The translations under genes were made by a program, and so were the position numbers. From the NCBI GenBank assembly GCA_020062545.1, contig JAGUWD010000018.1:1-64000 (forward strand): a stretch of DNA of 64,000 nucleotides, given 5' to 3'. Shown piece after piece: positions 29,542-50,367 of the stretch. The number at the start of each line of letters is the position of its first letter. The stretch's first letter is position 1. The stretch comes from Thermodesulfovibrionales bacterium (GTDB taxonomy: Bacteria > Nitrospirota > Thermodesulfovibrionia > Thermodesulfovibrionales > Dissulfurispiraceae). The notes below the pieces were generated by a model. The model worked only from the letters and a program-made list of their open reading frames with translations, did no database searches and had not been told where the DNA came from.

Positions 29542-30215
29542 TTCTTCTTTTCCTCCTTCTTTTCCGGCCTCGCAACAAGAGTTCTTGGCTTTATGCTCAT
29601 TGACCAGTCCTTTGCCTCCAGTGCATTATCGCAAAGCTCCTGAAGCCTGTCAAGCCTCTTCATCCTCTCATATATCCTCACCCATGCGCATTTGATATCA
29701 GGGCTAACCTCGCATTTACCGTCCTTGCATCCTCCACAAGGCCCGTTCAAAATACCCTTTGGACATGCAGTTACAGGACAAATGCCGCCTGTCTTATCAA
29801 GAATACACTTGCCGCACAACGAGCATCTCTCGTCAAACATCTGAAACCTTGTCATATTGCCGAGGAACAGACTGTCGTTCGTCGCATATACAGGCTTGTC
29901 CTCAAATATTTCAACAGCAGCCTGCGTACCTGCACCGCATGACATGATAAGGATACATTCTGTCTTATCGAGGGCATCTTTAAAAGGCTTTAATTCAATC
30001 TTTGTTCCGAGCACCTGACAGCCTGTCTTTGCAACAAAACCGCCTGTAACCTCTTTACCTTCTGCCTTTAATGCCTCTGTCAATGCATCTATCGCCTCCT
30101 GATTGCCTGTTCCGCAGAGGCTTGCACACTCAGAGCATCCAATAAGGAAGAAGCTCCTGTAGTTCTTTATATTCTCCATTAATTCCTGAAAGTCTCTTTT
30201 TTTAGTAATTATCAT
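29538..30215 (-). CDS. metV: Methylenetetrahydrofolate reductase Fe-S subunit
   Basis: 225 residues. The N-terminal part has GCSECASLCGTGN. The C-terminal zinc/Fe-S region has CSLCGKCI, GICPVTACPKGILNGPCGGCKDGKCEV and KCAWVRIYERM, the MTHFR C-terminal-domain signature seen in MetV of acetogens. It binds [4Fe-4S] clusters and passes electrons to MetF. Its start lies 23 bp from structured element copy A, which separates it from folD. Confidence 0.9.
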   Translation of the reverse strand: MIITKKRDFQELMENIKNYRSFFLIGCSECASLCGTGNQEAIDALTEALKAEGKEVTGGFVAKTGCQVLGTKIELKPFKDALDKTECILIMSCGAGTQAAVEIFEDKPVYATNDSLFLGNMTRFQMFDERCSLCGKCILDKTGGICPVTACPKGILNGPCGGCKDGKCEVSPDIKCAWVRIYERMKRLDRLQELCDNALEAKDWSMSIKPRTLVARPEKKEEKKK

Positions 30216-30237: not shown

Positions 30238-30372
30238 AAGATGATATGGCATTGTATTGGAGCGGTTTCAGCAACTCGAAGTTTCGCCGTGATGGAGAAA
30301 CCGAGTTGGTGCCTCGGAGACGGACATGGATGTTCGTCGAGAATGAGCGGAAATACTGTGCCATATCATCTT
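30238..30372. repeat. Structured intergenic element, copy A
   Basis: A 135-nt element. Terminal stem: AAGATGATATGGCA (30238-30251) pairs with TGCCATATCATCTT (30359-30372), extended after a 2-nt mismatch by GTATT / AATAC. Two internal hairpins: CAACTCG / CGAGTTG with an inner GTTTC / GAAAC stem (30272-30308), and GACGGACA-TGGA-TGTTCGTC (30319-30338). Conserved core edges are GTATTGGAGCG and GAGAATGAGCGGAAATAC. It lies between folD and metV. Two further copies occur at 31906 and 50238. Confidence 0.85.
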
Positions 30373-30393: not shown

Positions 30394-31302
30394 TCATTTT
30401 ATCCCTGCATGCAGCTTTGCCGACTTCACCGTGTTCTTCATAAGCATTGTGATTGTCATGGGACCAACACCGCCTGGAACAGGGGTAATCGCCCCTGCTA
30501 TCTCCTTTGCTGCATCAAAATCAACATCTCCCTTCAGTATTGGAACAGGCTTGCCGGTCTTTTCGCTTATTTTCTCACCAACACGATTGACACCCACATC
30601 TATGACACAGGCACCCGGCTTTATCCATTCAGGCTTCACAAGACCCGGAACACCAGCTGCTACAATAAGAATATCCGCACGCCTGCAATGAGATGCCAGA
30701 TCCTTTGTTCCTGTGTGCACAACCGTAACAGTAGCATTAGCTCCCTTGCCTTTTTGAAGTAGCATATTTGCAATCGGTTTTCCAACAATATTTGAACGGC
30801 CTACTACAACAACTTCAGATCCTGAAGTCTCAAAACCGGAGCGAACAATTAACTCCTGAATGCCTGCAGGTGTGCATGGAAGAAATTTAACCTCGTCTCC
30901 GCCTATCATAAGACGCCCGAGATTAACCGGATGAAATGCATCCACATCTTTATCTGGATCGATAGCATTCAGAACCTTCTTTTCATTTATGTGCCTGGGA
31001 AGGGGAAGCTGCACGAGTATGCCGTGTATCTTTGGATCCTTATTGTACTTGTCAATGAGTTTGAGAAGGTCTGTCTCGGAAATATCCTCGGGCTGGTCGT
31101 CCTGGATTGAATAGAAACCGAGTTCATGTGCGGTCTTCTGCTTTGCTGTAACATAACTTACAGAGGCCGGATTTTTCCCAACCAGTATGGTTACCAGACC
31201 GGGAACAATCCCGTGTTTTTCCTTCATTTCTGCAATTTCCTTTTTAAGCTCTTCCCTTATCTGTGCTGCTATTTCTGTACCACTGATTATTTTTGCTGCC
31301 AT
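30394..31302 (-). CDS. folD: Methylene-THF dehydrogenase / methenyl-THF cyclohydrolase
   Basis: 302 residues. FolD signatures: VGKNPASVSYVTAKQKTAHELG with the catalytic Lys, GILVQLPLPRHI, DPDKDVDAFHP and the Rossmann region VVVGRSNIVGKPIANMLLQKG, ending TPVPGGVGPMTITMLMKNTV. It interconverts formyl-, methenyl- and methylene-THF, the two steps before MetF. It is 20 bp downstream of folE and shares the operon. Confidence 0.98.
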   Translation of the reverse strand: MAAKIISGTEIAAQIREELKKEIAEMKEKHGIVPGLVTILVGKNPASVSYVTAKQKTAHELGFYSIQDDQPEDISETDLLKLIDKYNKDPKIHGILVQLPLPRHINEKKVLNAIDPDKDVDAFHPVNLGRLMIGGDEVKFLPCTPAGIQELIVRSGFETSGSEVVVVGRSNIVGKPIANMLLQKGKGANATVTVVHTGTKDLASHCRRADILIVAAGVPGLVKPEWIKPGACVIDVGVNRVGEKISEKTGKPVPILKGDVDFDAAKEIAGAITPVPGGVGPMTITMLMKNTVKSAKLHAGIK

Positions 31303-31905: not shown

Positions 31906-32038
31906 CGATAGGAGATAACGTATTGGAGCGACTTCGGCAGCCCAGGCGTAACATGGATGTTTAAGCGGGCTGGCGTAGCTTCGGAGAATGGCGAGGATGC
32001 CATTCGAGAATGAAGCGGAAATACATTATCTCCTATCG
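31906..32038. repeat. Structured intergenic element, copy B
   Basis: 133 nt. Terminal stem CGATAGGAGATAA (31906-31918) / TTATCTCCTATCG (32026-32038), then one mismatch and GTATT / AATAC. Hairpins: CAGCCC / GGGCTG with inner AACA-TGGA-TGTT (31938-31972), and GAATGGC-GAGGAT-GCCATTC (31986-32005). The core is close to copy C and diverged from copy A, but the outer stem is unrelated in sequence to both. It lies between the cyclo-ligase gene and folE. Confidence 0.88.
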
Positions 32039-32065: not shown

Positions 32066-32650
32066 CTAACACTCTATAATCCTTTTATCAGTTATTATCT
32101 TATCCATCTTTATATCATGCGGTTCAGAAGGTAATGCCTCCACAATCTGCTCTTCATAAGCCATGGCAATTAAACCCTTGACCCTTGACCCCTGACCCCT
32201 GACCCCTGACAATAATTTATCATAAAAACCCTTGCCATATCCCAGCCTGTTGCACTTTTCGTCAAAAGCAACTCCCGGAACTAATATTAAATCCATATGC
32301 TCCACGTTCATTAATCTATCTTCAGGGACATCGGGTTCGGATATTCCCAAATAACCTGAAATAAGCTCGCCCGTATCCTTTATCTCGTAAAGCTTCAGTT
32401 CGTTGTCCTGTTTATCAACCTTCGGCAGCACAACTACCTTTCCGTGTGCAACGCAATATTTTAACAGATCAAAGGTGTCAACTTCGCTTCTGAAAGAGGC
32501 ATATAAGAGAATTTTATGGGATGCCTTAAACTCCGAAAGCGCCAGCAGCCTTTCTTTAATCTCCCTGTCCTTGTCCTTCCTGATTTCTTCACGTATGGAA
32601 TCCCTGCGGGATAAAATGTATTTTCTTATGTCAGATTTACCTGTCAGCAA
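32066..32650 (-). CDS. 5-formyltetrahydrofolate cyclo-ligase
   Basis: About 194 residues. I prefer a TTG start at 32650 (LTGKSDIRKYILSRRDSI), which follows GGGAGGGGAT; an ATG at 32677 would overlap cooC by 19 nt. Signatures: LYASFRSEVDT, VVLPKVD, GYLGISEPD, DLILVPGVAFDEKCNRLGYGKGFYD. It converts 5-formyl-THF to methenyl-THF, salvaging an inhibitory folate. A heptanucleotide array inserts GVRGQGSRVKG near the C-terminus. Confidence 0.9.
   Translation of the reverse strand: MLTGKSDIRKYILSRRDSIREEIRKDKDREIKERLLALSEFKASHKILLYASFRSEVDTFDLLKYCVAHGKVVVLPKVDKQDNELKLYEIKDTGELISGYLGISEPDVPEDRLMNVEHMDLILVPGVAFDEKCNRLGYGKGFYDKLLSGVRGQGSRVKGLIAMAYEEQIVEALPSEPHDIKMDKIITDKRIIEC
32176..32210. repeat. In-frame heptanucleotide array in the cyclo-ligase gene
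   Basis: CCTTGAC twice and CCCTGAC three times. Encodes VRGQGSRVKG on the minus strand. Confidence 0.85.
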
Positions 32651-40429: not shown

Positions 40430-40503
40430 TGGGGAGTCGTCCAATGGCAGGACGGCAGACTCTGGATCTGCTTATAGGGGTTCGAATCCTCTCTCCCCAG
40501 CCA
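40430..40503 (+). tRNA. tRNA-Gln (anticodon CTG)
   Basis: Acceptor TGGGGAG / CTCCCCA pairs over 7 bp, D-arm CGTCCAATGGCAGGACG, anticodon stem GCAGA / TCTGC around loop CTCTGGA (anticodon CTG), and T-arm with GGTTCGAATCC. The discriminator G and CCA are encoded. Confidence 0.95.
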
Positions 40504-40506
40504 TGT

Positions 40507-40582
40507 GGTCCCATCGTCTAGAGGCCTAGGACGTGGCCCTCTCAAGGCTAAAACACGGGTTCGAATCCCGTTGGGACCGCCA
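40507..40582 (+). tRNA. tRNA-Glu (anticodon CTC)
   Basis: Acceptor GGTCCCA / TGGGACC, D-arm CGTCTAGAGGCCTAGGACG, anticodon loop CTCTCAA on stem TGGCC / GGCTA (one wobble), and T-arm CGGGTTCGAATCCCG. Discriminator G plus encoded CCA. Three bases from tRNA-Gln, so a shared precursor is likely. Confidence 0.95.
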
Positions 40583-50237: not shown

Positions 50238-50367
50238 AAGAAAGGATATAGTATTGGAGCGACTTCGGCAGCCCAAGCGTAACATGGATGTTTAAGCGGG
50301 CTGGCGCAGCTTCGGAGGAAGGCTGGATGCCTTCCGAGAATGAAGCGGAAATACTATATCCTTTCTT
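50238..50367. repeat. Structured intergenic element, copy C
   Basis: 130 nt. The outer stem is perfect: AAGAAAGGATATA (50238-50250) plus GTATT pairs with AATAC plus TATATCCTTTCTT (50350-50367). Inside are CAGCCC / GGGCTG with inner AACA-TGGA-TGTT, and GGAAGGC-TGGAT-GCCTTCC (50317-50335). Between the stems it differs from copy B at only a handful of bases, and the third hairpin differs by paired changes. It lies between the nfnA-like and nfnB-like genes. Confidence 0.88.

Follow-up and report, generated by a model that had tools for sequence, protein, structure and literature searches.

Three copies of a palindromic element in the window

The window is a stretch of 64,000 nucleotides of contig JAGUWD010000018.1 from a Thermodesulfovibrionales bacterium, and it holds three copies of a palindromic element, all read on the + strand. 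Copy 1 (30238–30372) is flanked by two genes of the - strand, of which one ends at 30394 and the other starts at 30215; copy 2 (31906–32038) is flanked by the 5-formyltetrahydrofolate cyclo-ligase and GTP cyclohydrolase I genes, also both on the - strand; and copy 3 (50238–50367) has an ortholog, L117, in the congener G003. In copy 1, the outer stem consists of a 5' arm, AAGATGATATGGCATT plus GTATT (30238–30258), and a 3' arm, AATAC plus TGTGCCATATCATCTT (30352–30372). The corresponding arms are CGATAGGAGATAAC plus GTATT (31906–31924) and AATAC plus ATTATCTCCTATCG (32020–32038) in copy 2, and AAGAAAGGATATA plus GTATT (50238–50255) and AATAC plus TATATCCTTTCTT (50350–50367) in copy 3. The left hairpin of copy 2 (31936–31974) has the apical loop CAUGGAUG at 31952–31959, and the same loop occurs at 50283–50290 in copy 3. 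The right hairpin is formed by GACGGACA/TGTTCGTC in copy 1 (30319–30338) and by GAATGGC/GCCATTC in copy 2 (31986–32005), each with GGA in the loop, and by GGAAGGC/GCCTTCC with the loop UGGAU in copy 3 (50317–50335). The initial annotation of this DNA had reported the three copies with these positions, ends, outer arms and inner stems, and all were found as described. Elsewhere in the window, a short tandem repeat, CCCTTGACCCCTGACCCCTGA, lies at 32180–32210 by the gene that precedes copy 2 in transcription order (relatives have similar stretches), and two adjacent tRNA genes occupy 40430–40579.

A folded element and its family

All copies share the shape of a three-way junction of about 135 bp, in which an outer stem (about 14 bp plus GTATT/AATAC) encloses, in order, GAGCG, the left hairpin, CUCGGAG, the right hairpin and CGAGAAUGA-GCG, the junction sequences being fixed among copies. 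Compared with dinucleotide shuffles, the folds of copies 1, 2 and 3 have z-scores of -6.9, -6.8 and -7.1, respectively, and none of 200 shuffles equalled them. Among 89 distinct sequences, compensation is two-sided in 36 of the 40 pairs and 97.0% of cells are paired; in a cross-phylum set, the corresponding values are 37 of 40 pairs and 95.9%, as against 37–48% of cells in slid controls of the 89 sequences and 35–48% over all slid controls. The paired substitutions that the initial annotation had seen in the inner stems of three copies are therefore real and extend to all 89 sequences, and its proposal of a folded element agrees with both the shuffles and the covariation. It had also taken the full complementarity of the outer arms as strong evidence for a folded RNA or a hairpin-recognised DNA element. 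The complementarity itself stands; as evidence it is weaker than was assumed, because template switching matches the arms of inverted repeats without selection on the fold (PMC8604942), which makes perfect arm pairing a weaker indication of RNA function.

Six copies in the genome were found by an exact pattern search, and a covariance model built from these six was then run on the genome and 40 relatives, a search that the initial annotation had proposed as a way to find further copies. It yielded 27 copies in the 2.62-Mb genome, including the three in the window, and copies in 24 of the 40 relatives, with at least 83 in G015, 48 in G004 and 29 in G012. A broader covariance model was run on a sample of 296 Nitrospirota genomes and matched 55 of them; scanning named genomes for the pattern gave hits in Thermodesulfovibrionales, other Nitrospirota, Desulfurivibrio sp. 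AMeS2 and Desulfobulbaceae bins. The family thus spans two phyla, the Desulfobulbaceae copies lying outside the Nitrospirota. A phage or plasmid origin was considered and rejected, since collections of viruses, phages and plasmids gave no element matches. The comparison with Rfam, also proposed at the outset, matched no family, either at the gathering threshold on the window or in E-value mode on copies 1 and 2 and six divergent loci, and a literature search returned no publication recognised as describing the element. The result adds a large structured repeat family that is present in two phyla and absent from Rfam.

Separate histories of the outer stem and the core

From the three copies in the window, the outer stems seem unrelated to one another, as the initial annotation had concluded. 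Over 86 copies this is false: the outer arms share the consensus ~(A)GGCAGGACATAGTATT, with G at position 10 in 91% of copies and A at position 13 in 92%, so the stem sequence is not random. Complementarity between arms is 95% within one copy versus 65% for arms taken from different copies. At unrelated sites, arm identity is 0.52 regardless of the identity of the cores, even when the latter exceeds 95%.

A different picture comes from loci shared between two genomes, as defined by both flanks. There, arm identity is 0.72 versus 0.52 in matched controls (p 1.6e-6), core identity is 0.89 versus 0.83 (p 0.001), and 28% of the other genome's copies have a closer core than the locus partner. The orientation of the core at shared loci is random (13 flipped and 14 the same, these pairs being non-independent, as they represent some 19 loci, with both orientations at 8), and the core subtype often differs while the arms are conserved. 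At one locus, for example, L013/L112 and L104/L088 share the stem AGCAGGTAATATARG (AGGAGGTAGTAAAGG in L088) with cores in opposite orientations; likewise, L016 and L093 have the rare stem base GTCTT/AAGAC in common, again with opposite cores. These comparisons tie the outer stem to the site that it occupies, whereas the conserved middle is exchanged and, in related species, often reversed. Some flipped pairs with different outer arms may be independent insertions into one spacer. The family offers a natural experiment in which the stem and the core of one element have different histories.

Genomic position and mobility

The copies occupy short operon spacers, right after stop codons. With simple open reading frames, rather than a curated annotation, as gene calls, 116 copies have a called gene on either side; in 87 of them the two genes run in the same direction, and the upstream stop is a median of 14 bp away. 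Of these 87 cores, 62 read antisense to the neighbouring genes and 25 sense (p 9e-5); in G015 taken alone, this antisense excess is absent (24:19). One Desulfurivibrio copy (L262:4221–4351) lies in frame within the gene for a 544-aa transglutaminase-like protein.

Copies 1 and 2 are missing at the matching intergenic sites of three congeners (G001, G002 and G003), and it follows from their absence in sister species that the element moves. The locus of L013 is empty in G003, G002 and G005; none of these empty sites contains a palindrome, that of G005 retaining the flank GCGGTATAGCAAAATTAATTA, and both arms must therefore have arrived with the element or have arisen later. The flanks of the copies reveal no clear target duplication, and the empty sites are so strongly diverged that exact junctions are unreadable. 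At the same L013 locus, other relatives (L206, L207 and L210) have unrelated purine-rich palindromes of the GTGAGAAG type, and the spacer thus resembles a hot spot for hairpins.

One explanation for the separate histories would be insertion of the core, as a cassette, into small palindromes that were already there and its exchange among them, with the stem as the target. Stems that track the locus, a random orientation and core subtypes that are unlike at several shared loci would all be expected, and stems without a core do exist; moreover, in some lineages the element is enclosed by another palindromic repeat, with CCCAAATCCAGCGATAA at its ends. However, the empty sites at three loci lack a palindrome, which led to the rejection of the stem as a palindrome predating the core, and the stem's consensus is specific to the element and its length varies little. 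As for the stems without a core, a search for short-loop stem patterns gave two core-deleted copies in G015 (the remainder being mostly background), and these look like deletions between short repeats. Insertion into existing palindromes is, on this evidence, quite unlikely.

The CCCAAATCCAGCGATAA repeat is separate from the element: it is a palindromic repeat of about 110–170 bp that is present in several relatives, encloses the element in places and was seen at L015, L044, L251, L295, L308, L330 and L344. The outer repeats TTATTCATAAA and CCCAAATCCAGCGATAA were considered as the true ends of the element and rejected, being found in some copies only. Solitary element ends were likewise considered as a sign of an autonomous form and rejected, these ends being decayed copies. 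A small hairpin, GGGGTCCCC...GGGG, which may be another small repeat family, interrupts some copies and elsewhere stands by itself in a spacer (L032, L038:2834–2998, L295:1443–1580, L344 and L214).

Probable template switching in a non-autonomous element

The explanation that we favour, and consider probable, is that these are small, non-autonomous, palindromic interspersed elements in which template switching pairs the arms and flips the core, recombination spreads the subtypes and an enzyme acts in trans. Template switching between inverted repeats is known to homogenise the arms and to invert the spacer between them (PMC8604942). Here, switching of the polymerase between the two arms would maintain their complementarity and would also flip the core in place, while recombination between copies would distribute the core subtypes and an enzyme supplied in trans would produce new copies. 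The homogenised arms and flipped cores would then be the hallmarks of template switching, and the overall pattern fits such switching acting over the long term. A warning follows for palindromes, where perfect compensatory pairing need not mean that an RNA fold has been selected.

The enzyme in trans could be a RAYT (Y1) transposase able to recognise the single strand once folded, which would make the element one of the REP/REPIN type; the initial annotation had named such a RAYT/IS200 link as its main alternative. The hairpins, the intergenic location near stop codons, the presence on both strands and the high copy number are in keeping with it, as is the presence of Y1 genes in all 9 genomes with at least 5 copies versus 6 of 13 others (p 0.017). 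However, a motif scan and BLAST found no element copy or end flanking any of 30 Y1-transposase loci, so a Y1 transposase flanked by copies was rejected as the partner and RAYT membership is unsupported; in G019, moreover, no Y1 gene was found although the element is present in 4 copies. The sole close contact is a Y1-transposase element with its own ends, AATAGGGACAGCG...CGCTGTCCCTATT, that landed inside a truncated copy (L158:1163–1905, in G001:C73), where it adjoins a direct duplication of the end of the neighbouring gene. REP/REPIN elements are defined by a GTAG-type tetranucleotide beside the palindrome (PMC3733652), and this was not found at the ends or junctions of 86 copies. Mobilisation by a RAYT therefore seems unlikely.

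GGA loops and a possible link to CsrA

Selfish spread may not be the whole story, as the conservation of the loops suggests a function beyond it. On the + strand, both loops carry GGA, the left one as CAUGGAUG and the right one as CNGGAUG. Of 89 sequences, 77 have GGA in the left loop, as against 21 expected, and 78 have it in the right loop, as against 15; the sequence of the left loop conforms to the Rsm motif A/U-CANGGANG-U/A; and a copy has on average 4.7 GGA on its + strand versus 0.4 on the other. The genome has a csrA gene and, among the genomes in which copies were read, GGA loops are found in 17 of 17 CsrA-positive ones and are absent from 4 of 6 CsrA-negative ones (p 0.0017 for the association), the four being G024, G033, G035 and G036 with one copy read in each.

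It is possible, if still doubtful, that the + strand RNA, with GGA in both loops and in the junctions, is a CsrA/RsmA-binding decoy or a regulatory site in operon spacers, a reading that is compatible with the mobility of the element. Against it, 62 of the 87 copies have a + strand that runs antisense to the neighbouring genes, and GGA loops are conserved equally in sense and antisense copies, which makes a simple role in the mRNA of those genes less likely. In addition, two CsrA-negative genomes, G012 and G013, have GGA loops, and G012 has as many as 29 GGA-type copies with no CsrA found. The association may also come down to one or two events, since the GGA-less copies from three taxonomic families have one left hairpin in common; GGA is also missing from further copies of the taxonomic families f2 and f11, which come from genomes outside the association. 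Putative CsrA binding, as read from the sequence, is the most testable functional lead. Were CsrA to bind these loops, a global regulator would have dozens of orientation-dependent sites scattered across the genome. A further idea, which we regard as very improbable, is that of an invertible RNA-binding cassette, in which flipping the core would reversibly add CsrA-type GGA loops to operon mRNA or remove them from it, in the manner of phase variation; were this true, such control would operate at dozens of operon spacers.

Comparison with known systems

The element works like REP, ERIC or RPE repeats and is placed in none of these groups here. Its general traits are REP-like, in that it is intergenic and palindromic, has a high copy number and is found on both strands; like REP/REPIN sequences, it is short, lies near the 3' ends of genes and is presumed to be mobilised in trans. 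It differs from them in lacking the GTAG tag and a RAYT flanked by copies, in being a 135-bp three-way junction rather than a hairpin of 20–40 bp, and in having site-specific outer stems and flipped cores. With RPE/CGTC-type repeats, it shares the palindromic form, the lack of a dedicated transposase among the genes found and an in-frame copy in a protein gene (the Desulfurivibrio copy above), whereas its structure and conserved motifs are different and no CGTC-tagged end was noted.

ERIC-type repeats and bacterial MITEs are similar in size to the element and resemble it in being extended palindromes that are intergenic and non-autonomous. As regards MITE-type terminal repeats, the arms have a consensus yet vary from copy to copy; in contrast to ERIC/MITE sequences, these variable arms are self-complementary, and a search for a parent insertion sequence, namely IS1380, found none. 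IS1380 had been hinted at by the outer repeats of some copies and was rejected, since none of the copy-rich genomes G000, G004, G012 and G015 has its transposase. Integron attC sites, which the initial annotation had not recognised here, are a poor match: inspection found no RYYYAAC/GTTRRRY core sites, the base of the stem being GTATT/AATAC and variable. Finally, GGA in the hairpin loops (CAGGAUG and CANGGANG) and in the junctions recalls CsrB/RsmZ-type RNAs, from which the element differs in its dozens of dispersed copies that are mostly antisense to operons. It is thus a new, widespread family of structured repeats of the REP/ERIC kind with an unusual mode of evolution.
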